From positions 2,566,001 to 2,630,000 of the forward strand of contig NZ_CP042467.1 in NCBI RefSeq assembly GCF_007993755.1: 64,000 nt of DNA. The letters run 5' to 3'. Made by a program: the position numbers and the translations under genes. Shown piece by piece: positions 41,938 to 61,550 of this stretch. Each line of letters begins with the position of its first letter. Positions within the stretch are counted from its first letter, which is position 1. This DNA comes from Microvenator marinus. GTDB lineage: Bacteria > Myxococcota_A > Bradymonadia > Bradymonadales > Bradymonadaceae. A model generated the notes under the pieces. It was not told where the DNA came from, made no database searches, and saw only the letters and a list, made by a program, of their open reading frames with translations.

Positions 41938-43299
41938 CTAGAGGCTAAGCCACGCGACCAAGGCGAGCACCAGCACGATAATCACACCGGTGATTATCTT
42001 GGCGGCGGTCGAGCCATGGGCTTTCTCATCGCGCGGGTCGACGACGGATGGGTCGCTCAAGGCAAGAGGCTTCGACTCTTTTGGCGTCTCTCGTTCCGGC
42101 GCCGGCGAGATGGTGGAGACATGAGGCGTAGGCTGGTGGCGGCGCCTCGGTCTGGAGAAAATCTGCACCGGAGGGGCTTCGGAAGATTCGGACGGCTCGG
42201 AGAGCCCGGGGCTCGGCACGCCATGCATAGGAGTTTGTTTGGCGTGATGCGGTGTATCCTGGCGAAAACGGCCGTGATGGGCTGAATCGGCCATAAAATC
42301 GTCTCGCCTAAAATCCAGCCATTTGCGCAAATCATCTTGGAAATCAGAAGCGCTTTGATAGCGTTCTTCGGGCCGCTTTTCGAGCGCCTTCATCACAATC
42401 TTCGTCAACTTGGCGTCAACGCTCGACCCCATGGCCGGCGGCGCCTGACTTTGATGCGCGAGGATGATCGCATAGGCGCTATCACCGTCAAACGGAAGCC
42501 GACCAGCGAGCAACTCATAGAGGATCACTCCCACGCTGTAGAGGTCTGAGCGCTCATCCACGTCCGGATTCAGGCCCTGTTCCGGCGATATGTACTCAGG
42601 CGTTCCGTAAATCTTTCCAACCACACTCAAGAACGGGTCCGAGCGTTGGTCCTTGACCTTCGCGATCCCGAAGTCGAGGAGTTTGACCATCTCGAGGCCG
42701 TCTCTCTGATTGAAATAGACGTTCTCGGGTTTGATATCACGGTGGACGAATCCAGCGTCATGCACGGCCTTGAGCCCCGCGAGGATCTCGAGCACCACCT
42801 CGACGGACTCCTCCTGACTCATTCGGCGTGTGTACATGCGGTCGAAAAGCTCCTCCCCTTTGAGCATCTCCATCGCAAGAAACGCGTGGCCTTCCTGAGT
42901 CTGCCCAAATTCGTAGACGCGCGTCACATGAGGGGAGCGAATCGCGCGGGAGATCTGAGCTTCTCGTTTGAAACGCTCGGAAATTGCCCAATCGTCCATA
43001 TACTCAGGCGAAATGACCTTAAGCGCTACGGGCCCGAGCCGCCTGCCATCCTGCATTTGGCGCTCGGCCGCATAGACTTCTCCCATGCCACCCGCTGCCA
43101 CAAATTTGAGAATTTTATAGGGACCAAACGGCGCGCCGGGCATCAGCAGGCGCTTGATGACCTTTTCGTCGTTGATATCGTGAAATTCAACGAGCTCATC
43201 GACCGAAGAAATATCTTCGATGACGTCGGAGTCCTCGATCAGCTCGATGAGCTCCGGAGGTAGTTCTACGAGGGTACTTTTCACGTGCGTTTTCGACAT
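41938..43299 (-). CDS. membrane-anchored Ser/Thr protein kinase
   Basis: The product has 453 residues. The kinase domain spans about 58-330: glycine loop AAGGMGEVYAAER, VAIK-type Lys in VALKVISPEYM, catalytic loop VHRDIKPENVYFN, metal DFGIAKV, and the APE equivalent GTPEYISPEQG. A Pro/Ser-rich juxtamembrane region follows. Residues about 430-452 form a C-terminal membrane helix (IITGVIIVLVLALVAWL) with almost nothing beyond it, so no external sensor is present. It is divergent from the App1-like gene, with start codons almost touching. It likely phosphorylates regulators from the inner-membrane face. Confidence 0.93.
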   Translation of the reverse strand: MSKTHVKSTLVELPPELIELIEDSDVIEDISSVDELVEFHDINDEKVIKRLLMPGAPFGPYKILKFVAAGGMGEVYAAERQMQDGRRLGPVALKVISPEYMDDWAISERFKREAQISRAIRSPHVTRVYEFGQTQEGHAFLAMEMLKGEELFDRMYTRRMSQEESVEVVLEILAGLKAVHDAGFVHRDIKPENVYFNQRDGLEMVKLLDFGIAKVKDQRSDPFLSVVGKIYGTPEYISPEQGLNPDVDERSDLYSVGVILYELLAGRLPFDGDSAYAIILAHQSQAPPAMGSSVDAKLTKIVMKALEKRPEERYQSASDFQDDLRKWLDFRRDDFMADSAHHGRFRQDTPHHAKQTPMHGVPSPGLSEPSESSEAPPVQIFSRPRRRHQPTPHVSTISPAPERETPKESKPLALSDPSVVDPRDEKAHGSTAAKIITGVIIVLVLALVAWLSL

Positions 43300-44471: not shown

Positions 44472-46080
44472 GTACGCGGCCATACTTCTAGCGGCCTTGC
44501 TTTTGGTGGCTGGCTGCAAGAAGGAATCTTCCACGCCGGTTCCCGCGACTTCGGACCTTGTACTCTATGCTCAAACCCTGGGGAGTTTGGTCCGAAGCGC
44601 GGATGCATTGGCCACGCGGACAGACTCGCGCTGGCGCCTCGTCTCATTCAAAGAGGCGGTCTTTCGCAATGTTGGACTCGACATCTACAGCAAGGAATTT
44701 TGGGACCTCATCGATATTGACTTTGAGAAGCCATCCACGCTCTTTTCAGACGAAGGGATCTGGGTGATTCGCGGCACAAGAGACAAAGAGAAATCGTTCG
44801 ACGCGTGGCTGGAGCCTAAAGCCAAAGCCGGGACGTATAAGGTCGAGGTATTAAAGGCGGGCGATTTTGACGTGCAGATCATCTCGACGCCTCAAGACCC
44901 TTCTGCGATTTTCGCACGCGCCGTCTCGGGGGACCAAGTCTCATGGATTCCAGGGCCTCGGCTCGCGCCCGGCGCCGAGTGGACAAGCGCATCGCTAGCC
45001 AAGTCGTTTGAGGCGTGGAGCGCGCTAGAATCAGCCGGTTCGTGGCGCTCCAAACCGTGGACCACTGATTTTCAAACACCCGATGACACTTGGCCTATCG
45101 TTGGTGGGTTTCGCACGAAGAGCTTCATCGAAGATAAGACTGGCACGGACCATGCCGAAGGACTCTGGAGCCGGATGCGGAATCAGTTCGGTCCGATGGG
45201 CGTAAAGATCGGATGGCGAAGTCCGGCACAGGTCGAAATCTTGGTCCGAACGCATGTGGATTTAAGTGAGCCATCATTCGTCAAAGAGATTCAAGGCGCG
45301 TCCAATTTGAATCCGGAGATCGGCGGGCTCGTCGTGCCTGGCGTACTCGGCGTGGCGCGTTTGTCGGTCAATCCAAAAAAGACTTTTGACCTGGTGCGTA
45401 GCGGACTCCCGCCGGAACAACGCGTGGAGCTCGACCGCTTTCTGGCGCAGCTCGATGAGACACTCGCGATCGACCTTGTGAAGGATGTTTTGGACAATCT
45501 TCCGGGGCATTTTATCGCAATCATCTACGGCTTTGATGTCAAGCAGTTACAGGCCGAAGGGGCGAGTCTTTACTCCAACCTCTTCTTTCTTCGAGCGACC
45601 CGTGAGGCACTTTACGTGCCGCTAAAGCAGTCGAGTGTGATGGAGAATGTTCTGGACGCGTGGACCCAGATCAGTCCGCACCTCAGCCGGCAGCGTGTTG
45701 AGAACTCGGTGCAATACGCGTGGGTCAAAGACAACATTCTGAGCTGGGCAATCTTGTTGAACCAAGACCATATGATCGTGGTGGACTCAACGGCCGCTTT
45801 CGACCGCGCGCTCGCCTACCAACGAAACCCTCGCGCCATTCCGGTCGCTGACCCACTGATCGCCGAGCTCTTGGAAACCCCAAACCGGACGGGAATGGTT
45901 TTGGACGCTCGCGGTCTTGCGAATCTGGTGGCCACGGGAGATGAGCCCGTTGAGTGGATAGAAGAGTACCTGGGTCCATTTCGGCAAATGCAGATTATTG
46001 GGGACTCTCTTGGAGGGGCCAAAGGAGAGATCCGGTTAAAGCTGGAGCTTGACGAAGCGGCCAAGGCGGCTAGTAAATAG
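44464..46080 (+). CDS. large lipoprotein of unknown function
   Basis: The product has 538 residues, with a lipobox ending LLLVAGC at about residue 18. The body is mixed alpha/beta with repeated phrases like VSWIPGPRLAPG, GVARLSVNPKKTF and DHMIVVDSTAAFDRAL. Such layouts occur in DUF3352-type proteins, but I cannot confirm the family. The GTG at 44464 has GGAG 7 nt upstream and overlaps the App1-like gene, so the two are co-translated. It converges on recB with an 11-nt overlap. Confidence 0.72.
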   Translation: MSRYAAILLAALLLVAGCKKESSTPVPATSDLVLYAQTLGSLVRSADALATRTDSRWRLVSFKEAVFRNVGLDIYSKEFWDLIDIDFEKPSTLFSDEGIWVIRGTRDKEKSFDAWLEPKAKAGTYKVEVLKAGDFDVQIISTPQDPSAIFARAVSGDQVSWIPGPRLAPGAEWTSASLAKSFEAWSALESAGSWRSKPWTTDFQTPDDTWPIVGGFRTKSFIEDKTGTDHAEGLWSRMRNQFGPMGVKIGWRSPAQVEILVRTHVDLSEPSFVKEIQGASNLNPEIGGLVVPGVLGVARLSVNPKKTFDLVRSGLPPEQRVELDRFLAQLDETLAIDLVKDVLDNLPGHFIAIIYGFDVKQLQAEGASLYSNLFFLRATREALYVPLKQSSVMENVLDAWTQISPHLSRQRVENSVQYAWVKDNILSWAILLNQDHMIVVDSTAAFDRALAYQRNPRAIPVADPLIAELLETPNRTGMVLDARGLANLVATGDEPVEWIEEYLGPFRQMQIIGDSLGGAKGEIRLKLELDEAAKAASK

Positions 46081-49000
46081 GCGCGGCCACGAGGTCAGAC
46101 TCGTAGTTTAGCAAATCCTCGAACTCCGGCCTGGCTGACCAGACTCCCTCGGTCGCATTCATTCCGCGCAGGAAGAAGTAGAGATATCCCCCAAAACGCG
46201 CGTCGTATTCTTCTTTGGTGTGAAGCCGCAACATGCGCGCGACCGCAAGCCCGTAGAGAGATGCCTGAGTCCCGTAATTCTTGGCCACATGGTGCTCGAG
46301 CAAGTCCTTTGAGTAGTTCTCAAGGGTGTCCGACTTCCAGTCCGCGAAATAGATCTTGGAGTCGTATTCGAAGAGTAAGTCGATAAACCCTTTGATCCAC
46401 CCGCGCTCAATCCGAAAAGGCCCATCCGGCCGAATATCCAACCCGAATTCACCTTCGGGGATGGGGAACATGAACTCCACCTCTTTGAGTACACGCGACG
46501 CCTGGCCGAGCCGAGGCATTGTCTTTGAGTCCGGGAGTTCAATCTGAGCCGACAACGTGGCATGTACAATCGACTCACAATAATTTCGGTAGGTTGGGTC
46601 AATGGCGTAGCGCTTGAAGTTCGTGTCAAAAACCTTGGTTGTAGCGGGCAGTGAACGCCAGTCATCAAGACCAAGAGGCTCCGAGAAATACTCGAGGTCC
46701 TCTAGAATTTGGTGGAGAAAGACCCCCTGTAAGGCGCCGCCTGGCAGCTCCTCTTCCTTTCTCCATGCCGAGGGAATCTGTGCGGGCTCGGCCTCAAATG
46801 GCTCGGCTGTGCCATCAAGGTCATCCGCGGCAGTCGCCTTATAACCACCGGTAAAACGCTTCATCCGACTATAAGAGCTGATGACGAAGCTCTTTGGTCT
46901 CAAGTCTTCGTTAAACGCTCTCAGAGTCTCTAGCTGGATCTCCTGTCGAACAATCCGCGGCGGGAGAACGCGGGGCGCATTTTCATCCCATGGAAAGATT
47001 GTGATTTCTTCGAAGAGCAATTCGTTAAGTGTGCGACTTCGCTGCATTGAAATGAGGCGGTCATTGAGCATCCTCATCATGCCGTCGAATTTATGGATGT
47101 CTTTTGCGCGACTTGCAAAAGGCACCACGATTCGCGCGCGAGCGCGCGTGATGCCAACGTAGAGGAGGCGGCGGTCTTCTTCGGCGATTTCGTGGCGCGC
47201 AAGCTCGATGGCTTTTGGGGCGTAGGGCTTGCCGATATGAAGGATTCTGCGGTGGCCCCAGTGCAAGGTTGTGAACTCGTCGAAGGAGTTTCTCGATATC
47301 CCTCCGAAGAGAAAGACCACGTCCGCCTCGAGTCCCTTTGATTTGTGGAACGTCATAATCTGAACGGCGTCGCGTTCACTCTCAAGGCGCTGAATATCTC
47401 GGTCGTCATCACCGGCATGTTTCGTGCCGGAAACCCACGACGAGAGAGTCTCAATGAGGTCCTTGAAAGCCGTATTGGAGCCGTGTGAGGCTTCGAGTAA
47501 CAGCTCGAAGATGTGCTGATAGTTTGTGAGTTCGCGCTCCGAATGACGGTCAAAAATCTCGCGGCGCACGATACCACTTCGGTCCAAGATATCGATGAAG
47601 AGGCGCTCAAAATCTCGCGCTTGGGCAAGTTCGCTCCACCGGATGAGCCGATCGAAAATCGGGTGTGTTTCGGGCAGGTCTCGACATCGTCCGAGGTCCT
47701 CGATATCCACCTCGAAAAAGTGCGTCATCCATGCCTTGATCCGACGATCCTCAAGGTGAGGCTCGTCAATGGCTCTGAGCACGTCCAAGACTTCAGCCGC
47801 TTCAGGCGTGGCGAAGAGGCCCTCGAGTTTGTAAAACGCAAAGGGCACCCCACGATCACGGAACACCTCTCCGATCCTGTGTTCTTCTCGCCTCGTCCTC
47901 GCCAGCACAAAGATATCGCTTGGTCCTACCCGCCTGAGCTCGCCTTCGTCCTGAAGAAAGATCGGTTCGTCACCCAAGATTTTCAGGATCTCATCAGCGA
48001 TATAATGACCATAGGAATCGAAGAGATCATCACCATAAATTTTCTCTCCCCCTTTATCGAGACGCACCATAGAGAACGGAACGATATCGTTGCCGTGCTT
48101 ATCCAGCGCGCGCAAAAACTCCTTTCCGGGCTCTACAGGCTCATCATAAGAAATTTTCTGGGCATCAAAAAAAGGATTACGGTCATTCTGATTAAAGACC
48201 GCGTTGTAGGCTTGAATGACCCTGGGTGTAGACCTGAAGTTCTGTTTGAGCGGAACAACCGGACTGCGTTTGGCCATCTGCTCCTTGGCCTGCAGGTAGG
48301 TATGAACGTCAGCTCCACGAAACCCGTAGATGGCCTGCTTCGGGTCGCCGATCACGAAAAGTCTATTGGTTGGGGATTCGAAGAAAAGGGTCTTGAAAAT
48401 GTTCCACTGGACCTCGTCGGTGTCTTGAAACTCGTCCACGAGGGCGTACTTGTAACGCATTCTCAAAAACTGGATGAGGGCCGCGGCAGTGGGGTCTGAC
48501 GGGTCCTTCATACGCTCCCAGACCGTGGTGAGCATATCATCGAAATCGTAGAAACCTCGCTCCTTTTCCCGAATATGTGCAGCCATCACGCGGGGCGCAA
48601 AGGCCTGCAAAACGGCTGCCTTTAAGGGTGGGAACTCAAGGAGCATGGTGTCGAGCGCGGGGCATCGATTCCTAAGTCCGTTGACCTTCTTGAGCCGTTG
48701 CCACCCCTCGACCCGATGGTCCACGGAGACGAGAAGGTCCGGGATGGGCCGACCTTTGACAAAGTCTTCAGCCACCTTGAACATCTCCATGGCAATCTCT
48801 TGCGCTTCCATGAAATCAGTGGGCACCGAATTGGACGCCAAACTCTCCAAGCCCTGCCATTCGGCGTCCCGACGCTCATGAAGCTGGGTGAGAGCACGCT
48901 CAAGATCATAAAGATTGAACTTCGGACGGATATCGGCGGGTGTGGTGCAAACCACGTAGAGTCCACGCTGAAGCTCTTCAAAGGAGTGCCTCGAGAGCCA

Positions 49001-49528
49001 ATGCTCCAAAAGTTCTTTGAGGGGCGATTCCACGGCAATTTCAGTGCGCAATGCCTTATGGAACGCGCGCTCAAAGAGATGAGAGGAATCCTCGTGTGTC
49101 TGGTCAAAAAGCTTTCTCAGATAGAAGGCGTTTTCGCTCAAAATACGGCGGCAAAACCCGTGGATGGTGTGAATTGGCGCGCGATCAAACGCGTAGACCT
49201 GACTCTCAAGATAGAGTCTCGTGGATTCGTCGATCTCCCAGAACGCATCACCGGGTTTGAGCTCCACGTCTTCGGGGCGCGTGGTCAAAATGCGTTCAAG
49301 AAGGGCGCGGACTCGGCTTCGAAGCTCACTCGTGGCGCGTTCGGTATACGTAACCACTAAAATTTCCTCAACGCCAACGCGTGCCTCTGGCTTGAGCATG
49401 ATTTCGATGATCAAGTGCTCGAGCGTGTAGGTCTTTCCGGTGCCAGCAGAAGCCTCGATCACCGCGTGGTGCTTCAGGGGGATCTGGGCCAGAATTTGGG
49501 GCTTGGGATAGCGCAAGGTCTGTGTCAT
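46070..49528 (-). CDS. recB: RecB-type helicase-nuclease subunit
   Basis: The product has 1152 residues. An N-terminal UvrD-like helicase has Walker A EASAGTGKTYTLEHL, YALVDEFQDTDEVQW (motif II), VFLFGGISRN onward, and VGITRARARIVVPF (motif VI). A C-terminal nuclease carries GFIDLLFEYDSKIYFADWKS with the Asp and Lys of the D...DxK site, plus YGTQASLYGLAV. Nuclease and helicase match RecB of the RecBCD recombination and end-resection complex. ATG 49528 is chosen because it starts near the P-loop, although no strong ribosome site is visible. It is divergent from recC (63-nt gap). Confidence 0.93.
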   Translation of the reverse strand: MTQTLRYPKPQILAQIPLKHHAVIEASAGTGKTYTLEHLIIEIMLKPEARVGVEEILVVTYTERATSELRSRVRALLERILTTRPEDVELKPGDAFWEIDESTRLYLESQVYAFDRAPIHTIHGFCRRILSENAFYLRKLFDQTHEDSSHLFERAFHKALRTEIAVESPLKELLEHWLSRHSFEELQRGLYVVCTTPADIRPKFNLYDLERALTQLHERRDAEWQGLESLASNSVPTDFMEAQEIAMEMFKVAEDFVKGRPIPDLLVSVDHRVEGWQRLKKVNGLRNRCPALDTMLLEFPPLKAAVLQAFAPRVMAAHIREKERGFYDFDDMLTTVWERMKDPSDPTAAALIQFLRMRYKYALVDEFQDTDEVQWNIFKTLFFESPTNRLFVIGDPKQAIYGFRGADVHTYLQAKEQMAKRSPVVPLKQNFRSTPRVIQAYNAVFNQNDRNPFFDAQKISYDEPVEPGKEFLRALDKHGNDIVPFSMVRLDKGGEKIYGDDLFDSYGHYIADEILKILGDEPIFLQDEGELRRVGPSDIFVLARTRREEHRIGEVFRDRGVPFAFYKLEGLFATPEAAEVLDVLRAIDEPHLEDRRIKAWMTHFFEVDIEDLGRCRDLPETHPIFDRLIRWSELAQARDFERLFIDILDRSGIVRREIFDRHSERELTNYQHIFELLLEASHGSNTAFKDLIETLSSWVSGTKHAGDDDRDIQRLESERDAVQIMTFHKSKGLEADVVFLFGGISRNSFDEFTTLHWGHRRILHIGKPYAPKAIELARHEIAEEDRRLLYVGITRARARIVVPFASRAKDIHKFDGMMRMLNDRLISMQRSRTLNELLFEEITIFPWDENAPRVLPPRIVRQEIQLETLRAFNEDLRPKSFVISSYSRMKRFTGGYKATAADDLDGTAEPFEAEPAQIPSAWRKEEELPGGALQGVFLHQILEDLEYFSEPLGLDDWRSLPATTKVFDTNFKRYAIDPTYRNYCESIVHATLSAQIELPDSKTMPRLGQASRVLKEVEFMFPIPEGEFGLDIRPDGPFRIERGWIKGFIDLLFEYDSKIYFADWKSDTLENYSKDLLEHHVAKNYGTQASLYGLAVARMLRLHTKEEYDARFGGYLYFFLRGMNATEGVWSARPEFEDLLNYESDLVAAPIY

Positions 49529-49591
49529 ACCGAGGACGATAGGCGGTCTTATACCTTGGGGGCAAGCCCCTTTACGTGTAGTGTTCGAGAC

Positions 49592-52500
49592 ATGATTCAA
49601 CTCTGGTATTCAAACTACTTGGAGCGACTCGTCGACGCATTTGTGGCGTGTGCTTTTGCGCGGGATTCAGATCCGCTCGATACCCGTTTGGTGGTCGTGC
49701 CGAACCGCAATATCGAGACCTATCTGAAGCTCGAAGTTGCGCGACGAGAGGGGATTTCCGCCAACGTGGAGTACATGTTCCTGAATCGGTTTTTGACTCG
49801 ATTATTAGGAGCGGAGATCAAGTTTTTGGACCGCGAGATGGTCCGTGGATTGCTCCTCGACGAGATCCTCTCAACCGAGCGCCCCCTGCCAGAGCTCGAC
49901 TTCTATCTGGATGCCGCCCGCGACCACGATGACCGCGATCGAAGGGCGTTTCAGGTGGCGGACAGACTCGCGAGGTTTTTTGAGGAGTACGAGCTTAGCC
50001 GGCCACAAATGATCGAGGCGTGGGCGACTCATACAATTTTGGAGGAAGAGCCGTTCAAGAGCACCGAAGCGTGGCAAAGAGAGCTCTGGCTTCGGATCTT
50101 TGGACCCGAAGGAAAAGTTGAAGAGATTCGCCAATCGCATTCCTCGGTTCAAGTGATGCGTTTGGGCGAGTTCTTGAGCAAGGTGGCTAACGGCGCGCCG
50201 CCATTGGGACAGCCGATTCATTTCTTTGGCCTCTCCTACCTCGCAAAGCAGTACTACCGGGTCATCGAAGGTCTTTCGAGCGAGAACCTGGTCTATCTCT
50301 ACACGCTAAATCCCTGCATGGAGTTTTGGGAGGACCTGCCGAGTGAGTGGAAATTACGCCGTGCTCAACGCTTTCAGAAGCGGGCACGCTCCATGCCGAT
50401 GCTCAATCTCAGAAACGAGGCGAATATCCGCGTGGGAGAGGAAGAGGACCCGATACCCCTTAGGCTTTGGGGCGAGCCTGGGCGCGACCATATTCGATTT
50501 TTGAATCAGTTGACGGAGTGTGATTTCGAGCCACTTTTTGAGGACCCGATGGATTCGGGTGACTCACTTCTCCACCAAATCCAACACGATATTTATGCAC
50601 GAAACGCAGTCCAGACCATTCAGCGGCGACCATGGGATCCGAGCTTTGTAGTGCTCGAATGCCCGACCCTCGAGCGCGAAGTCGAGATCGTGGCGAGCGA
50701 GATTTGGCGAGTGATTCAGGAAGAAGAGGAGAATGGAAATACACTTAATTTTAATGATTTCGCTGTGGTGGTTAACCCTGAAGACAGAGAGGCATACCAG
50801 GCTCATATCCGCGCCATATTTAGGGACACATGGAATATTCCACATAATATCATCGATATCAGCGCCTCAAAAAACCGCCGATTTTTGGAAGGTGTTGATC
50901 TACTACTGAAGTTACCTTTTGGGGAGTTCAGACGCGACGAGTTACTGCGTCTTCTGACTCACCCTAATGTTATGGCGCGGGCCCCTGAGGCGCGGCCACA
51001 GGACTGGAAACGTTGGGTTGACGACCTCCATATTCTCTATGGTGGCGACCAGTCCGACCTTGAGCATACCTACATCAAAAAGGCGCTCTATCATTGGGAT
51101 CAGGGGCTACGCAGGCTCAGTCTTGGCGTCCTGATGCACAACGATACCGAGGATTTGCGGGTCTTTTCGGGCGAACAAGAGTGGGTGCCGTATTCGACGA
51201 GTCCGTCCGAGATGAAGAGCGTGGCGAGTTTTGTGCGCGCGGCGCGGGAGTTGATTTCCAAGTCCCGCGAGTTTGCTGAAGCTGAGCACCCTCTGAAGGT
51301 TTGGTACACGCTCGTCGCCGAGTGGATTCGAGCCTCGCTACATTGCGTAGATGAGGACGACGAGATGGATATGAGTCGTGTGCTTCGCACCATCGACGAC
51401 CTCGAGGACCGTGAACTTTCAACGCGGCCTGTCTCGTACCGTGTGGCGTTGGACTCAATCGACGCAGCGCTCGAAAACCTGGAAATCTCGCGGGGCCAGT
51501 ACCTGGCCGAAGGTGTGGTCGTCTCGTCCTTTGTTCCTATGCGGCCAATTCCTTTCAAAGTGGTCTTCATCTTAGGGCTCGGTGAGCGCAATTTTCCCCG
51601 CATGGATACGCGTTCTCCGCTTGATTTGCGTTGGGCTCGTAGCGAGGAATTCGACCATTTTTCCAGTCGGCGAAATGACGAGTACATGTTCCTTGAGACC
51701 ATGATTTCCACGCGCGAAAGGCTCTACCTGAGCTACGTTTCGCGCAATTCGCATACCGGTGAAGAGATGATGCCTTCATCGGTGGTCCGCGAGCTCGACT
51801 TCATGTTGAAGCGTTATTATCTGGACGAGGACGAGTTCGAGAAGGTGCACCGGAAGCACCCGCTTAGACGGTTTGACCCCGCGTATTTCCGTGGCGATCC
51901 GAAGTTTATCAACGTGCATCCCGAGGCGTTGAGAGAGGCTAAAACGCTGGCTCTGCGATCCGCAGGTGCGGCACGTAACGCGCCAGAGGTTGCTGAGCTC
52001 TTGGGCTTTGTGGATCTCCCCGAGCGACCCGAATGGCATGAGGAGGTCACGATTTCGATTCGGCAGATCCGGAGATTTTTGGAAAATCCTCTGCAAGGTA
52101 CGGCTGAGTTTTTCCTCGGCCTTCGAACCGGAAGCGATGAAGATATTTTTGCGGTTGAGACCGAATATTTCTCGACCCCGGGAGCTTGGGTTCGACGAGA
52201 GTTGAGCGCGATTTTGCTCGAGGCCTGGACAAAACAAGGTGCAGATCTCAAGGAAGCAGACCTCGAAAGGCTTTTTGATGAACATGCTCGGGTCCAGGAA
52301 CTCTGCGGACAAATCCCGACCGGGATCTTTCTCAAGGCCAATCGCCAAAAGCATCTGCATAAGATGCAGCAATGGCTCAACAACCTCGAACTCCTCGAAA
52401 TCTCAACGGCTGAAAAGCCCGAAGTCTGGCATTTTGGGCGAGACCGCGAACGGCGGGTGCAGGTCAACTTCTCGGACCCGATCGAGTTCCAAGTTCCGGG

Positions 52501-53050
52501 CGAACCCCCACTCAAGGTGATTCTTAGCGGCAAGACGGGCCCCGTGCTGTCCAAGAGCGGGGTCAGCCTGACCCTCAATAACGCGAGTGGGCTTGGGAGT
52601 TGGAATAGCGAGTACCAGTTTCTAAGCGGGTTTTTGGACTATATGGTGCTGCTCGCCACAGGGCGCGTGGAGGCGGAGCGTTGGCGAGTGGTGGTCAACG
52701 GGAACGATATTGCCACCAATTCAAACGTGCGTGAGTTTGTGTTCAAGGATTCCGACGAGGCGCGCGAAGCGGCGCTCAATTGGTTGCATGGGATTTTCAG
52801 GAGCATGGTTTCTGGAGTTCATACCTATCAGTTCCCCGCGGACGCTGCGCTTGACCAGGGCTTAAGGAGCGAGAAATGGGCCAAGCCGTTTGACCGAATC
52901 GTGCGTAATTCGAAGCTCAACTGGGGACCGATCAAGGACCCAAAAGACCAACGGCTTTATCGGATCCCGAGCGACGACGAAGTTGCAGATCTCATCGAGG
53001 CGCGCCTCGGCCCCTACTTCAAGAGTCGACAGGATCCCGATGCGTGGTGA
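49592..53050 (+). CDS. recC: RecC-type subunit
   Basis: The product has 1152 residues, close to E. coli RecC. It begins MIQLWYSNYLERLVDAF, the usual RecC N-terminus that grips the RecB linker, and shows LVVVPNRNIETYLKLEVAR, PIHFFGLSYLAKQYY, FKVVFILGLGERNFPRMD and YMFLETMISTRERLYLSYV. RecC has degenerate helicase and nuclease folds and recognises Chi. A long frame before ATG 49592 reads into recB, so 49592 is chosen. Divergent placement opposite recB is unlike E. coli. No recD follows; the next gene is an ArsA-type ATPase 39 nt downstream. Confidence 0.94.
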   Translation: MIQLWYSNYLERLVDAFVACAFARDSDPLDTRLVVVPNRNIETYLKLEVARREGISANVEYMFLNRFLTRLLGAEIKFLDREMVRGLLLDEILSTERPLPELDFYLDAARDHDDRDRRAFQVADRLARFFEEYELSRPQMIEAWATHTILEEEPFKSTEAWQRELWLRIFGPEGKVEEIRQSHSSVQVMRLGEFLSKVANGAPPLGQPIHFFGLSYLAKQYYRVIEGLSSENLVYLYTLNPCMEFWEDLPSEWKLRRAQRFQKRARSMPMLNLRNEANIRVGEEEDPIPLRLWGEPGRDHIRFLNQLTECDFEPLFEDPMDSGDSLLHQIQHDIYARNAVQTIQRRPWDPSFVVLECPTLEREVEIVASEIWRVIQEEEENGNTLNFNDFAVVVNPEDREAYQAHIRAIFRDTWNIPHNIIDISASKNRRFLEGVDLLLKLPFGEFRRDELLRLLTHPNVMARAPEARPQDWKRWVDDLHILYGGDQSDLEHTYIKKALYHWDQGLRRLSLGVLMHNDTEDLRVFSGEQEWVPYSTSPSEMKSVASFVRAARELISKSREFAEAEHPLKVWYTLVAEWIRASLHCVDEDDEMDMSRVLRTIDDLEDRELSTRPVSYRVALDSIDAALENLEISRGQYLAEGVVVSSFVPMRPIPFKVVFILGLGERNFPRMDTRSPLDLRWARSEEFDHFSSRRNDEYMFLETMISTRERLYLSYVSRNSHTGEEMMPSSVVRELDFMLKRYYLDEDEFEKVHRKHPLRRFDPAYFRGDPKFINVHPEALREAKTLALRSAGAARNAPEVAELLGFVDLPERPEWHEEVTISIRQIRRFLENPLQGTAEFFLGLRTGSDEDIFAVETEYFSTPGAWVRRELSAILLEAWTKQGADLKEADLERLFDEHARVQELCGQIPTGIFLKANRQKHLHKMQQWLNNLELLEISTAEKPEVWHFGRDRERRVQVNFSDPIEFQVPGEPPLKVILSGKTGPVLSKSGVSLTLNNASGLGSWNSEYQFLSGFLDYMVLLATGRVEAERWRVVVNGNDIATNSNVREFVFKDSDEAREAALNWLHGIFRSMVSGVHTYQFPADAALDQGLRSEKWAKPFDRIVRNSKLNWGPIKDPKDQRLYRIPSDDEVADLIEARLGPYFKSRQDPDAW

Positions 53051-53089: not shown

Positions 53090-54082
53090 GTGCATGGCGT
53101 ACATTTCAGCGCCTGTTTTTGGGCGGCGAAACCCTTGAAATCAACGAACCTCTATAAAAAACGGCTTTTACTCTTTTCCGGGAAAGGAGGCGTTGGGAAG
53201 ACCACCGTTTCCTCAGCTTTTGCGCTAAGTTGCGCGAGGCGTGGCGAGAAGACCCTCCTCATTGAGCTCAACGTTCACGATAAGGTGAGCTCTATGTTCG
53301 GGGCCGGGCGAGTGGGCACTGAGATCACCGAGGTCGAGGACAACCTCTGGGCGGTCAACATCACGCCTGAAGCGGCCCTCGAAGAGTACGCGGTGATGAT
53401 GCTCAAGGTGCGTATCGTCTACAAGGCGGTGTTTGAAAACCGCATCATGAAGTCATTTTTGCGCGCGATCCCTGGCCTCAATGAGCTGGTCATGCTCGGA
53501 AAGGCTTATTACCACGTGGTCGAGAAAGAGAATGGCAAGCACGTCTGGGACAAGATCGTGGTGGATGCGCCGGCAACGGGTCACGGGCTCTTTCTACTGA
53601 AGATCCCAATGGTCATCACCTCGATCCTGAGCTCTGGCCATATGTTTGAAGAGGCGGAGCGCATCATCGAGGTCTTGCGGGACCCGGAGATTACGGCCTT
53701 GAATCTGGTGACTTTGGCAGAAGAGATGCCGGTCAATGAGACGATCATGCTCCACAACCAAACTCGCGACGAGCTCAAGATCCCGATGGGGGCTGTGATT
53801 GCGAACGGCGTTTACGAGCCACTCTTCAGCGAGTCGGAACATGAAATCCTCAACGCTGCTGCAAAACACGTCAAAGAGCCGTCAGTACTGGCGATGATTG
53901 ATGCGGCGAACTTTCGAGTGATGCGCACGCGATTGCAGGCCGGGTATCTGAAAGAGATCGATCGTGAGATTCCGCTACCCCGACATACACTTCCGTTCGT
54001 ATTTACGCCGCGTATGGACTTTCAATCCCTTCTGACACTCGCCGAAAAGCTCGAGTCCGAAATTGAAGGGGGGCAATCATGA
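53090..54082 (+). CDS. ArsA/Get3-type ATPase, subunit A
   Basis: The product has 330 residues from GTG 53090; a TTG at 53135 would place the P-loop about 16 residues from the N-terminus, as usual in this family, and may be the true start. The deviant Walker A is GKGGVGKTT with the signature Lys. Where ArsA and Get3 have DPA after strand 2 this protein reads ELNVHDK. Switch II is VVDAPATGHGLFLL. Residues 160-250 contain a hydrophobic segment. It forms an ATGA junction with a second ArsA-type gene, and the pair probably makes a heterodimer. The client or substrate is unknown. Confidence 0.88.
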   Translation: MHGVHFSACFWAAKPLKSTNLYKKRLLLFSGKGGVGKTTVSSAFALSCARRGEKTLLIELNVHDKVSSMFGAGRVGTEITEVEDNLWAVNITPEAALEEYAVMMLKVRIVYKAVFENRIMKSFLRAIPGLNELVMLGKAYYHVVEKENGKHVWDKIVVDAPATGHGLFLLKIPMVITSILSSGHMFEEAERIIEVLRDPEITALNLVTLAEEMPVNETIMLHNQTRDELKIPMGAVIANGVYEPLFSESEHEILNAAAKHVKEPSVLAMIDAANFRVMRTRLQAGYLKEIDREIPLPRHTLPFVFTPRMDFQSLLTLAEKLESEIEGGQS

Positions 54083-55266
54083 ACGCGCAAAGCAAACTCG
54101 CTGAATTGGTGGCTAGTAAGAGAGTCGTGGTTTGTGTGGGCAGCGGTGGTGTTGGAAAGACGACTACAAGTGCGGTCATCGCGCTTCACGCTGCGATGCA
54201 GGGGCGTCGGGTACTCGTACTTACGATCGACCCAGCGAAACGCCTTGCGAACTCCCTGGGTATCGACGCCTTGAGCAACGACGTCACCCGCATTCCGATC
54301 GAGAAGTTTCGAGATATCGGGCTTGAGCCAAAAGGCGAGCTTTGGGCCATGATGCTCGACATGAAAGAGAGCTTTGACCATGTGGTTCGGCGTTATGCGC
54401 CAGCCAAGGAGCGCAAGGCGATTCTCGAGAACAGGATTTATCAGTATTTCTCCACAAGCCTGGCCGGCACGCAGGAGTACGCGGCCGCCGAGCGACTCTA
54501 TGAGCTCTACGAAGAAGGGAACTTCGACCTGATTGTGCTGGACACGCCCCCTACCACTCACGCGCTGGACTTCCTTGAGGCTCCTAAGCGACTCGAGGAT
54601 GCGGTAGACAACAAGGCGCTCTACTGGCTCTTCAAGCCCGGGATGCTCGCCGGTCGCACAGGCTTGGGCGTGTTTTCAACGGGTACAGCCTATGTTTTCA
54701 AGACGCTGAGTAAGTTTACAGGGGCGGAGCTCTTGGAGGAATTCTCGACGTTCCTAAAGAACTTTGCGGTGCTTTTTGAGGGTTTGAAGGAGCGAAGTCG
54801 CCGAGTCAGAAAGCTATTGACCGGCCCTGAATCAACTTTTGTGGTGGTTACGGCGCCAGAAGCATCGTCGTTGGAGGAAGCCCTCTACTTCCACAAAAAG
54901 TTGGGCGATGAAGAAGTTCAGGTGGGTGGTTTTGTAATCAATCGCGTCCGAACCGCATGGGTGGACGCGGAGGATGCTCGAATGCCGGCGGTTTCTGTGG
55001 TCCATCATCTTGCGGAAAGCGGGCATGCCGTAGACCACTTGAGCCCTGAGGACCTGCGCGATCTTGCTGGGAAGCTCTTGAAAAATGCTCAGGAATCCGC
55101 CGTACTTGCTGAGGTGGACAATAACTCAATAGAGGTCTTGAGGCGGGCAATAAGCCGCAACACACCGATTCAAAGAGTGCCTTTTTTCAGTACGGATATC
55201 CACAGCTTGCGCGGACTCAACTTGGTTCGAACGTCGCTCTTTGCTGAGCACACGCGGACTCCGTAG
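54079..55266 (+). CDS. ArsA/Get3-type ATPase, subunit B
   Basis: The product has 395 residues. The P-loop is GSGGVGKTTTS: the signature Lys of the deviant Walker A (GKGG) is replaced by Ser. The DPA motif is kept in LTIDPAKRLANSLG, and switch II is VLDTPPTTHALDFL. A hydrophobic groove region is at about 175-225. It overlaps subunit A by 4 nt. Complementary loss of the signature Lys here and the DPA Asp in subunit A suggests that the two share active sites across a dimer. Not an arsenite pump: no arsB or arsC, and no Cys triad. Confidence 0.9.
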   Translation: MNAQSKLAELVASKRVVVCVGSGGVGKTTTSAVIALHAAMQGRRVLVLTIDPAKRLANSLGIDALSNDVTRIPIEKFRDIGLEPKGELWAMMLDMKESFDHVVRRYAPAKERKAILENRIYQYFSTSLAGTQEYAAAERLYELYEEGNFDLIVLDTPPTTHALDFLEAPKRLEDAVDNKALYWLFKPGMLAGRTGLGVFSTGTAYVFKTLSKFTGAELLEEFSTFLKNFAVLFEGLKERSRRVRKLLTGPESTFVVVTAPEASSLEEALYFHKKLGDEEVQVGGFVINRVRTAWVDAEDARMPAVSVVHHLAESGHAVDHLSPEDLRDLAGKLLKNAQESAVLAEVDNNSIEVLRRAISRNTPIQRVPFFSTDIHSLRGLNLVRTSLFAEHTRTP

Positions 55267-56700: not shown

Positions 56701-59700
56701 TCAACCACGTTCACGCTGAGCCGCAACTCTCTGGGCGTCATCGGTTCGGCCCAGACCAATCCAGATAGCCTCGGAGAGGCTCAGAGCGTCTTCACGCAGG
56801 TCAGTATGACCGCGCCTTTGGTAGAGCCCAGCAAAGTGTTCGAGCAACCACGCGAGGTCAAATTCGTAGCGACTTCGGTGTCTGATGTCGCGCGTCACCC
56901 CGACCCAACGCTCATGGAAGTCCGGACTTTCGACCCCAAGTGAGAACTCCACAGCGAGGCGACCGAGTGTGAGGTGATTGTGTAGGTTGGCAGTTCGGAC
57001 AGCTGGATCCTCCTGCAAGAAGTCCAGAATGATAAGAGCCTCGCGGTCTTGCCCCAGCGCGATACGACAGAGCGACTGGTTCAACATCGCGATCTTGCCG
57101 TTCAAATTATCCATACCGAGGAGTGCGACCACATCCGAGTAGTGGTCGAGCGCGGCCTCTTGATTACCCTTCAAACGCTCAAACTCTCCGAGATAGGCAT
57201 GACCCGCGGCGAGCATCGCTCTATCACCCAATGCGCGGGCGGCATGGATAAGTGCGTCGATCCTCTGCCGAGCAGTCTCGTGGTCGCCGCGTTGCAAGTA
57301 GAGGAATGACGCAGCCTGATCCACTTTTCCAACCCAATGTAGGTCACCTTCGGCACGGAAAATCGACTGAGCCTGATTGAGCCTTTGAAAGGCAAACTCG
57401 TATTGGCCCTGAAGCCCAAAATTCCAGCCCTGCGAGAGCATTAGCGTGCCAGCCTCAACCAACTCACCGGCGCGCTCCAGAATCTCAATGGCTTCTTCAA
57501 TGGCTTCGTTTGCGGCTTCAAAGGACTTTTTGCGCAATATTTTGACGCGGAGCCTGGCCGCTGAGCCGGCGGCACGAAACGCGCCATCTCTTTCAGCGTC
57601 TGAAAGGGCTCGGACTACGGTCTTTAAGTCGAACACGCCATCATCAAACTCAAGCCAGAGCCTTGCCACATCGGCTGTTCTTGCCGCGACGGGAAAGCGG
57701 GCATCAGGGAAACGCGACTTCAAGTTGTCAAATGAATCGAGCGCCCTCTTTGCAGGCTCGTTACCTTCGCTGTGGTGGTAGCGAAGGGCAGCCGCCGTAT
57801 AGAGTTCGGCTGCACGCTCTACTTCACCTGCCTGCTCAAGGTGATACGCGACGCGCTCAAGGACTCTGGCGTCCGTCATCGGATGAATTTTCGCCAAGGT
57901 TTCTGCAACCACGCTATGAGCAGACCCGAACGTATCGGCCGAGAGCTTAATCACCGCGCGCCGGACATCTTCGGCGACAAAGCGGTAGAGACCGTTGGGC
58001 TCACGCACCACAAGACCGACTTGAACGATCTGGTCGATGAGGGCATCTGGACCCGGCAGAATGGCCGTTTTGAGCACAGCTTCCCACTCTTGACGACGGA
58101 TTTCTGAGCCAAGCACAGCCGCATATAGAGCGGCCTCGCGGGCACTTGCATCGATCTTTCCGAGGAGCGCATCCGCGGCAGCAAACGCGAGTTCGTGAGA
58201 CGACTCTTGTGAGATGGAGTCGCGAGGCATGACCAATTCGTAGCCATCCACACCTGGTACCAACATTTCTCGCTCAACCCAGCTCATCACGTAGCGCAGT
58301 GCGTCGGCGGGCGAGCCATCTGCGCGCTCAAGAACCATCTCCAAGAGGTGTGGTTCAAGCTGGAGCATGCGCTGTAAAATGGCCGCAAGTTCAGGGTCTC
58401 GAAGTGGCTCGAGGTCAATCAAATGGGCGCGCTCAGAGCGCGTCAAACTCTCAAGTCCCGCGCGAGCCAGGCTGTCTGAACTGGACACGCTCAAGACCAC
58501 CAGCACGTTCGCGTTTGAATTCATCAACTTGTCGGTGAACCGCCATGCATCCGGTTCGCGATGGGCATCGTCAAACACGATGACCATTGGGATTCGCTCG
58601 GCCATCCGCGTGATCAGACGGTAGAGCAGATCTTGGCGCTCAGCCCTTGTAACGCTGGTTGCGCCTGGGGATACGGCGTCGCAAAAGGCGACCGCGTCCA
58701 AGAAATCTCCTTCGTCGACCGGCCGAATACTGCCCATGAAATTGCGAAATCGAGCTATGGCGCGCTCGGGCTTAAGATGGAGAATGCGTGCGCAGCGCCC
58801 AATTTCTTCTTCGAGGGGGCCGAGGCCGAGCCTCGAGTGGTGAAAGCGCGCAATCAGCGGGACCGCGAGGCCTAACTCGTCGGCAATTCTCGCGCCCCAC
58901 TCGGCAAGGCGCGTCTTGCCCGTGCCGGCGGCTCCCCGGATTATCACTGCTTGTGGCCCGCTCTGCGCGAGTTCAAGCGCCTGCCAGACTTGATCGCGCT
59001 CAGTCTCTCGCCCAAGGAACGGTGGAACGCGGTGCCGTACCATGCCGAGCCCCACATAGCGCGGCCTAGAAGGCATGTGTGATTCTTCGTGCTCCCGCCA
59101 ATCAAGGGGCAATGGGGGGCGTGGACCGAGGAGCGGCACAACTTCCATGGTGGTCATCTCCACGGGAGAGGTGATGACGGTAGGCTCCATCTTAGGATCG
59201 ATAATATCCGGTGAGGTATCAGCCTGCGCCTCTATCCAGTCTTCCATTGGGGCAAGGTCCGCCTTCTGAAGCAGCCATGCGGCCTGCGCGGCACTCGCGG
59301 GACGATCGTTCGGGTCTTTGGCGAGGAGTGAATGCAGCCATTCTTTGACGCCCGGAGGAACCGAGATGATGGGACGAAACTCAGGGATCGCATGACGGAC
59401 GTGCGCTCTTAGCGTCTCCGTCGCGTTCTCGCCGTCAAAAGGCACGCGGCCACAAATCAGTTTATGGGCGAGGCAGCCAAGCGAGTAGAGGTCGGTCCAG
59501 GGGCCGAGGTCGTCGGGCTCTCCAGTGACTTGTTCTGGCGCCATGTATCGTGGGGTACCGGTCACGCGCGAGTCGTAGCTCGCGTTTTCGCCTTCGAGCA
59601 CGCGCGAAATACCAAAATCGGTCAGGATCGGCTCAAGCGGGAGCTCGGAATGACGCAGGAGAATGTTGCCCGGCTTGATGTCCAGGTGAAGAACACCGTG

Positions 59701-60084
59701 CGCGTGCGCGTGCGCAAGCGCATCGAGCATGGCCTTGAGGAGGTCGCGAACCGCACGCCAATTCAGCCCGGGCTTAAACTCCTCGAGCGTTCCACCTGCC
59801 ACGTACTCAGTGACCACGTATGGGTTTCCAGCATGCAGGCCTAATTCGTCATTGCTTTCGTCAACCAGGCCAGCGTCCAAAATCTGGGTGATATTGGCGT
59901 GATTGAGCCTTGCTACCGCACGAACTTCGTTCGCAAAAAACTCGCGATAGCGGGCATTCTGAGCACGTTCCGTGGTTAGCACCTTAATGGCCACACTTTG
60001 GCCACTCAACGTATGGTCCCCTCGCCACACCACGGAGGTTCCGCCGCGGCCGAGAACGTGCAAAAGTTTGTATGGACCTACCAT
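56701..60084 (-). CDS. kinase-AAA-TPR signalling protein (STAND-like)
   Basis: The product has 1127 residues. An N-terminal Ser/Thr kinase (about 1-265) has GRGGTSVVWRG, VAIKVLTTERAQ, catalytic loop VLHLDIKPGNILL (the usual HRD Arg is Leu), TDFGISRVLEG and TPRYMAPEQVTG. An ATPase follows (about 340-600), with Walker A IIRGAAGTGKTRLAEWG and Walker B MVIVFDDAHREPD. The C-terminal half (about 720-1127) is TPR-like. This is the layout of PknK-type kinases with LuxR/MalT-like ATPase modules. The start at 60084 is chosen because it begins just before the glycine loop; it has no strong ribosome site. Divergent from a GNAT gene. Confidence 0.9.
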   Translation of the reverse strand: MVGPYKLLHVLGRGGTSVVWRGDHTLSGQSVAIKVLTTERAQNARYREFFANEVRAVARLNHANITQILDAGLVDESNDELGLHAGNPYVVTEYVAGGTLEEFKPGLNWRAVRDLLKAMLDALAHAHAHGVLHLDIKPGNILLRHSELPLEPILTDFGISRVLEGENASYDSRVTGTPRYMAPEQVTGEPDDLGPWTDLYSLGCLAHKLICGRVPFDGENATETLRAHVRHAIPEFRPIISVPPGVKEWLHSLLAKDPNDRPASAAQAAWLLQKADLAPMEDWIEAQADTSPDIIDPKMEPTVITSPVEMTTMEVVPLLGPRPPLPLDWREHEESHMPSRPRYVGLGMVRHRVPPFLGRETERDQVWQALELAQSGPQAVIIRGAAGTGKTRLAEWGARIADELGLAVPLIARFHHSRLGLGPLEEEIGRCARILHLKPERAIARFRNFMGSIRPVDEGDFLDAVAFCDAVSPGATSVTRAERQDLLYRLITRMAERIPMVIVFDDAHREPDAWRFTDKLMNSNANVLVVLSVSSSDSLARAGLESLTRSERAHLIDLEPLRDPELAAILQRMLQLEPHLLEMVLERADGSPADALRYVMSWVEREMLVPGVDGYELVMPRDSISQESSHELAFAAADALLGKIDASAREAALYAAVLGSEIRRQEWEAVLKTAILPGPDALIDQIVQVGLVVREPNGLYRFVAEDVRRAVIKLSADTFGSAHSVVAETLAKIHPMTDARVLERVAYHLEQAGEVERAAELYTAAALRYHHSEGNEPAKRALDSFDNLKSRFPDARFPVAARTADVARLWLEFDDGVFDLKTVVRALSDAERDGAFRAAGSAARLRVKILRKKSFEAANEAIEEAIEILERAGELVEAGTLMLSQGWNFGLQGQYEFAFQRLNQAQSIFRAEGDLHWVGKVDQAASFLYLQRGDHETARQRIDALIHAARALGDRAMLAAGHAYLGEFERLKGNQEAALDHYSDVVALLGMDNLNGKIAMLNQSLCRIALGQDREALIILDFLQEDPAVRTANLHNHLTLGRLAVEFSLGVESPDFHERWVGVTRDIRHRSRYEFDLAWLLEHFAGLYQRRGHTDLREDALSLSEAIWIGLGRTDDAQRVAAQRERG

Positions 60085-60142
60085 GGAAATGAGTTTAGCC
60101 AATAGTTGGTCCAGTGAATACCCTAAGTGACGAGGAGTTTTG

Positions 60143-60622
60143 GTGACAATCGAAGTCTCAATCGCAGAAATGGCACATCTGCCTGATTTAATGCGCATTC
60201 AAGCCAAGGCATACGGTCCGGGATTAGTGGAGTCAGAAGCCGTACTTGAGTCTCGGGTCAGGGCAGGAAAGGGCTATTCTTTTGTGGCAACCGGTGACGG
60301 CGAGGTCTTGGGGTATGTGCTGGCGCATCCGTGGCCTCGGCACGCGAGCCCTGGACTTGAGAACGTGTTCAGTGAATCCCCACCTGGCTCAGACGCACTT
60401 CATATCCATGACATGGCTTTGGATGAGCGCGCCAAGGGACAAGGGATTTCGAGGCTACTTCTCGCCGCCGTGGAGGGGGCCGCCTCTGGAAGGTTTCAAG
60501 CGTCAACGCTTGTGGCTGTTCAGGGAGCTCAAACCTTTTGGACGCATGTGGGCTTTGAAGACGAAGGCCCCGCAGAAGGTTATGATGAAGGTGCGCGATT
60601 TATGAGCAAACGGCTTAGGTAG
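60143..60622 (+). CDS. GNAT-family N-acetyltransferase
   Basis: The product has 159 residues. The acetyl-CoA-binding motif A is HDMALDERAKGQGISRLLL (Q/RxxGxG/A), followed by AVEGAASG and the C-terminal strand QGAQTFWTHVGFEDEG. Acceptor is unknown. GTG 60143 is chosen because GAGGAG lies 5 nt upstream; a TTG one codon earlier is also possible. It is divergent from the giant kinase (58-nt gap) and its 3' end overlaps the diguanylate cyclase gene by 8 nt. Confidence 0.88.
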   Translation: MTIEVSIAEMAHLPDLMRIQAKAYGPGLVESEAVLESRVRAGKGYSFVATGDGEVLGYVLAHPWPRHASPGLENVFSESPPGSDALHIHDMALDERAKGQGISRLLLAAVEGAASGRFQASTLVAVQGAQTFWTHVGFEDEGPAEGYDEGARFMSKRLR

Positions 60623-61550
60623 CCATTTCCACGCGATTTCTACCGGAGCGCTTTGCGGCGTACAAGGCACCGTCTGCCGCTGCAATCAGTTCATCCGGTG
60701 TTTGCACGTCGATTTCAGGGAAACTCGCGACGCCCATACTGATCGTGACGGGAACATGCTGACCGTCGTACTCGAATCTAAATCTAGCGATACCTGCCCG
60801 GATACGCTCCGCAAGCTGGTATCCTTGATACATCGTAATCCCGCGCAAAATCACGGCGAACTCTTCGCCTCCATAGCGCGCAAATACATCTTCGGCACGC
60901 AGCATGCCATGAGCCAATCGCCCAAGGTTTGCCAAGATATAGTCACCAGCGAGGTGCCCAAAGGTGTCGTTGGTGTTCTTGAAGTGGTCGATATCGAACA
61001 TGACCAGGCACAGGTGCGTAGAATGCCGCTTTGCGTAGGAAAATTCGCTGTAAATATTATCGCTGAAGTACTTCTTATTGAACGCACCGGTCAGGGCGTC
61101 CTTTAGAGCGGCTTCAGTGATTCGTAGCTGGTAGTCTTCGTCAATACCGTCTTGGAGCGAGAACTTAATGATGGTTGAGGCTCCGATGGCGATTTTATCA
61201 CCCTCTTGGAGCTCATGCCTGATACTAAGCCGTTGGCCGTTGACGTAGGTGCCGTTTGCGCTTTGGAGGTCTTCTACAAAGACTTGGTCTCCGACTCTTG
61301 AGACGCGCACATGGGAGCGCGAGATACCCACATCTTGTAGGGTGAGGTCTGACTTATCCGAGCGGCCGAGAATAGTCTCGTTCCTATCGACTTTGAGCAT
61401 GGCCCCAGAATGAGGTCCTGCAATCACCATCAAATAAGCCTGAGAACGCTGAGTAATCTGTTCCCGGACGCGTTTAAGCGCCGCAGAATCTACGATTTGC
61501 GTGGCCTCAGACGACTCTGATTGGTCGTGCGGGAATTCGCTATCATCCAT
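60615..61550 (-). CDS. FHA-GGDEF diguanylate cyclase
   Basis: The product has 311 residues. An FHA domain at about 40-115 shows ILGRSDKSDLTLQDVGISRS, HVRV and SANGTYVNGQRL, so it binds phosphothreonine. A GGDEF domain at about 145-305 has the active-site FARYGGEEFAVIL and an upstream RAED that fits the inhibitory I-site (RxxD, five residues before GGEEF). It makes c-di-GMP from two GTP, with FHA input likely reading a Ser/Thr kinase, and the neighbouring large kinase is an obvious candidate. It is a soluble protein. No membrane sensor is attached. Confidence 0.93.
   Translation of the reverse strand: MDDSEFPHDQSESSEATQIVDSAALKRVREQITQRSQAYLMVIAGPHSGAMLKVDRNETILGRSDKSDLTLQDVGISRSHVRVSRVGDQVFVEDLQSANGTYVNGQRLSIRHELQEGDKIAIGASTIIKFSLQDGIDEDYQLRITEAALKDALTGAFNKKYFSDNIYSEFSYAKRHSTHLCLVMFDIDHFKNTNDTFGHLAGDYILANLGRLAHGMLRAEDVFARYGGEEFAVILRGITMYQGYQLAERIRAGIARFRFEYDGQHVPVTISMGVASFPEIDVQTPDELIAAADGALYAAKRSGRNRVEMAT

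Follow-up and report, generated by a model that had tools for sequence, protein, structure and literature searches.

Two adjacent genes on the forward strand of the 64,000-nucleotide stretch of Microvenator marinus DNA analysed here (the window) encode Get3/ArsA-fold ATPases in which each subunit lacks the catalytic motif that its partner keeps. Very probably, subunits A and B would be obligate partners in a Get3-like heterodimer of the BagA/BagB kind, in which a single competent ATP site sits on B and is completed by a lysine from A. The same two losses recur throughout the A and B homologues examined, whether their genes are adjacent or unlinked, so the motif pattern is not due to chance. 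The asymmetry of two Mycobacterium tuberculosis proteins is an exceptionless rule in our sample, which covers at least two bacterial phyla, and not a mycobacterial oddity.

Subunit A (53090..54082, + strand) is BagA-like, of the Rv3679 type. Its start is uncertain, with either the listed GTG at 53090 or a TTG at 53135 as the first codon, and the TTG is the better match to the N-termini of its relatives. The deviant Walker A of A (GKGGVGKT, 53180..53203; GKGGVGKTT for the P-loop in full) keeps the signature Lys (53183-53185), and its switch I is degenerate (ELNVHDK, 53264..53284), with an Asn (AAC, 53270-53272) at the position of the catalytic Asp. Subunit B (54079..55266, + strand) is BagB-like, of the Rv3680 type, and shows the reverse. 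Its P-loop (GSGGVGKT, 54139..54162; GSGGVGKTT in full) has a Ser in place of the signature Lys (54142-54144) and keeps the Walker A Lys, and its switch I is intact (TIDPAKR, 54223..54243). The sequence bears out what the first-pass annotation had said of both proteins, namely that A keeps the signature Lys and has lost DPA, and that B keeps DPA (IDPAK) and has lost the signature Lys. The two genes are read in different frames, and the stop codon of A and the start codon of B share four bases (ATGA, 54079..54082), which suggests that the two are translationally coupled.

That annotation had also proposed checking whether homologous pairs conserve both losses, and we found no exception. The aligned set held 144 A and 157 B homologues after rows for fused ArsA were removed. 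Named loci with the pair were from Myxococcota, Actinomycetota, and Desulfobacteraceae, and from single MAGs labelled Schekmanbacteria, Gemmatimonadetes, and Pseudomonadales. The signature Lys is found in 143/143 A proteins with an aligned P-loop and in 0/157 B proteins. Conversely, DP at switch I is found in 157/157 B and 0/144 A, a count in which DPA retention was partly preselected at the named loci, where the DNA-pattern scan included the DPA stretch. The scan left the signature position free, and the profile searches of genomes used whole-protein profiles. In B, the signature Lys is replaced by Ser (102), Ala (20), Pro (16), Thr (9), Cys (6), Val (3), or Gly (1). A tree built with both motif stretches masked still kept A and B apart, with a main A clade of 103 sequences (support 0.998) and a B group of 111/111 (support 0.698). 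In it, two of the sequences classed as A grouped with fused ArsA, probably because fused ArsA rows were still in the tree set.

For both subunits, the nearest relatives with a solved structure come from one complex. A sequence search against solved structures returned 6bs3_A (Rv3679) for A (E 4e-25) and 6bs3_B (Rv3680) for B (E 3.5e-67), and the title of entry 6bs3 describes bacterial Get3-like A and B of M. tuberculosis, with both chains in one complex. We also built single-chain AF2 models, each on an alignment of the subunit's own relatives (pLDDT 90.7 for A and 86.2 for B, with low confidence around residues 180-210 of B). Foldseek gave the same top matches, 6bs3_A for the model of A and 6bs3_B for that of B. 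When aligned with A, Rv3679 shows GKGGTGKS and EVEGRQG, and Rv3680 aligned with B shows GAGGVGKT and IDPAK; judged by these alignments, the mycobacterial proteins carry the same reciprocal losses as the window pair. The comparable mycobacterial heterodimer of ArsA-like ATPases that the first-pass annotation had mentioned is thus real: it is BagA/BagB (Rv3679/Rv3680, PDB 6bs3-6bs5), in which each subunit has its nearest relative. The best NCBIfam models are likewise BagA (NF053622) for A and BagB (NF053621) for B. Scores fell below the equivalog cut-offs in both cases (139.2 against 400 bits for A and 323.9 against 521 bits for B), so we use the label BagAB-type and make no claim of orthology. 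None of the 188 sampled genomes of the phylum reached the BagB cut-off of 521 bits, and both models appear to be tuned to the mycobacterial proteins.

The deviant Walker A of Get3-type ATPases has a second Lys that crosses the dimer interface, in agreement with what had been claimed for the signature Lys, and D57 is the catalytic Asp, which primes the attacking water (PMC10248533). A yeast Get3 mutant, D57N, traps ATP (PMC12506534). If A and B dimerise as Get3 does, which we infer from the M. tuberculosis complex, the site on B would have its P-loop Lys, its Asp, and the Lys of A, while the site on A would lack both the Asp and a Lys in trans, leaving one competent site. ATP held in the P-loop of B would be hydrolysed with the switch I Asp of B (DPA) and the signature Lys of A acting in trans. 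The mirror site on A, with its natural Asn like that of the yeast D57N trap, would at most bind nucleotide, and a single hydrolysis per dimer would open and close the pair. The exceptionless conservation of the losses supports the strict heterodimer with one composite site that had been proposed from the window, in which both the dimerisation and the single site would follow the mycobacterial model.

The site on A could instead work as a second ATPase that is slow or regulated, or could bind a structural nucleotide needed for closure, still within a heterodimer. The Walker A Lys is present in 137/143 A proteins, the switch II Asp is invariant among A homologues, and the G-H/R is conserved, so selection probably maintains nucleotide binding at A. 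Against a second ATPase, the catalytic-Asp position drifts freely in A (Asn 47, Glu 31, Gly 26, Asp 22, Ala 8, and others including Ser), and B never supplies a Lys in trans. An Asp does persist there in 22/144 A proteins (~15%), never followed by Pro, and the position looks like one under relaxed constraint. The Walker A Lys itself is gone in six A proteins, where it is replaced by Arg and the signature Lys is kept. We regard this alternative as rather unlikely, and prefer the heterodimer in which only the B site is competent.

The subunits also differ in their helical regions. In Get3, the helices that bind the tail anchor sit in the stretch that runs from switch II to the next core strand. 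The corresponding segment of A is only 29 aa long (53588..53674; AF2 pLDDT 90.7), as in its homologues (median 29 aa, both quartiles 29), whereas B has a subdomain of 84 aa (54565..54816) at the position of the Get3 client-binding helices (homologue median 84 aa, quartiles 82-84). A is therefore short of ~55 residues of the helical, client-binding region, and the alignments of Rv3679 and Rv3680 show the same contrast. With this region long in B and short in A, the catalytic and client-binding asymmetries coincide in B. Because the client-binding subdomain is full-length in B only, B would both hold the client and catalyse hydrolysis, and A would be its activating, regulatory partner. The client may be a hydrophobic or membrane protein. 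The literature we found establishes no client for BagAB; in mycobacteria, bagAB reportedly confers protection from the toxicity of glycerol and nitric oxide, and mutants are reported to have effects on citrate killing and streptomycin survival (PMC10597346; PMC12216072).

A and B also occur together across genomes. Among 188 genomes of the phylum, 183 gave BagB-family matches at a loose threshold and 174 gave matches better than 1e-10. A was absent (E above 1e-10) in fourteen genomes, and the same fourteen had no BagB match better than 1e-6; these belong to seven genera in four families and do not represent fourteen independent events. Five other genomes (G087, G130, G144, G150, G194) were ambiguous, with weak matches on one or both sides. 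Across 120 linked pairs, the distances among A proteins and among B proteins were strongly correlated (Mantel r 0.90, permutation maximum 0.08), a correlation to which shared species history contributes.

In several Myxococcota families, no A gene lies within 1.5 kb of B, which could be taken to mean that A and B form independent homodimers with divergent functions. However, each genome with an unlinked B that we tested has an A-like gene elsewhere, and the reciprocal losses are intact in these unlinked A and B. All of the unlinked genes compared (20/20 B and 20/20 A) are nearer to the window pair than to the second pair described below. The pairing of unlinked B with A is inferred from this genome content. 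A homodimer of A would lack the switch I Asp and one of B would lack the Lys in trans, and BagA and BagB were deposited as one complex (6bs3). Given the shared absence from the same genomes and the co-varying distances, we rejected independent homodimers as highly improbable.

The M. marinus genome encodes a second A/B pair at about 1.2354-1.2375 Mb (G000:C1; 6382-7362 and 7363-8472 of locus L009). Its motifs (GKGGVGKS and ETDAYS in A, GPGGVGKT and IDPAK in B) show the same reciprocal losses, and it shares 28% (A) and 38% (B) identity with the window pair. Among class-level relatives, thirty-nine of forty linked pairs were concordant in type (twenty-nine type 1, ten type 2) and one was discordant, which makes it plausible, from sequence typing, that a cell holds two separate heterodimers. 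Three loci in order-level relatives (L187, L190, L191) carry extra ArsA-like pairs, with GKGGVGR[ST] in A, where Arg replaces the Walker A Lys, and TIDPSKR in B.

The new element here is modest and lies in the breadth across lineages, the unlinking of A and B, and the paralogous pairs. A wider generalisation, which we offer only tentatively and hold a little less likely to be right than wrong, is that half-site ATPases of the BagAB type may be an ancient bacterial system, often with several insulated paralogous pairs per genome. In such a system, A would serve purely as a trans-activator, a Lys-finger subunit that has no ATPase activity and in some cases lacks the Walker A Lys too, and B alone would carry the client. 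The non-mycobacterial lineages with such pairs identified here are places where the half-site idea and the client become testable.

Directly upstream of A in the window are a divergent recB-like gene (46070-49600, - strand; UvrD helicase and PD-(D/E)XK domains) and a recC-like gene (49415-53050, + strand). Elsewhere in the window are a Ser/Thr kinase fused to an AAA domain and a TPR region (56701-60198, - strand), a further kinase (41938-43299, - strand), and an FHA-GGDEF protein (60615-61550, - strand). At L100, L101, L103, and L139 (Desulfobacteraceae, Myxococcaceae), a gene with a PHB_acc_N domain (polyhydroxyalkanoate regulator) lies upstream of A. Two arrangements absent from the window are a GcvT/YgfZ-like gene just upstream of A (L230, L235, L242) and a TPR gene after B (L230, L235; the L235 copy is lipoprotein-like). 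Many actinobacterial relatives have a class A PBP as a neighbour. Among the neighbours called automatically are shadow open frames in high-GC loci; we relied on a call only if Pfam or the sequence itself confirmed it. We rejected a function read from the operon, as neighbours differ between lineages and indicate no single pathway. With surroundings that change from one lineage to the next, the pair acts as a stand-alone module.

Both proteins match Pfam ArsA_ATPase, which would fit a split arsenite pump ATPase, and like ArsA the pair has two ArsA-fold ATPase modules encoded together. ArsA differs in being one fused chain in ars operons with both motifs in both halves. In the tree, the fused ArsA of relatives lies outside both the A clade and the B clade, and each of its halves retains the Lys and DPA. 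In the window, neither module has both Lys and DPA, and no ars operon surrounds them. Across the A and B homologues, the median is 1-2 Cys per protein. A scan of the genes flanking A and B found no Ars domains, in line with the earlier statement that no arsenic gene lies nearby; the sole ArsB-family match in the genome scores a weak 24.8 bits and lies about 1.2 Mb from the pair. We therefore rejected ArsA or a role in arsenic from the motifs, context, and tree, and leave that reading only the slightest chance. The Pfam label of anion-transporting ATPase is not supported as the function of the pair.

Get3 (TRC40, eukaryotic/archaeal) shares with A and B the fold, the deviant Walker A, and the layout of switches I and II. 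Unlike the window pair, it is a homodimer in which each subunit has both motifs; neither A nor B of the window carries both in one chain. Any CxxC, the motif of Get3/TRC40, occurs in only 1/144 A and 9/157 B. BagA/BagB is closest: its genes are neighbours, it has the same reciprocal losses and the same short helical segment in A and long one in B, and, for each subunit, it is the top match in both sequence and fold. Identity in the fold alignments is ~27% (A) and ~36% (B), and the gene neighbourhood differs: recB/recC lie beside the window pair, and many actinobacterial relatives have a downstream class A PBP. By these comparisons of sequence and fold, the window pair is of the BagAB type, a distant relative of BagA/BagB with an arrangement that is already known.
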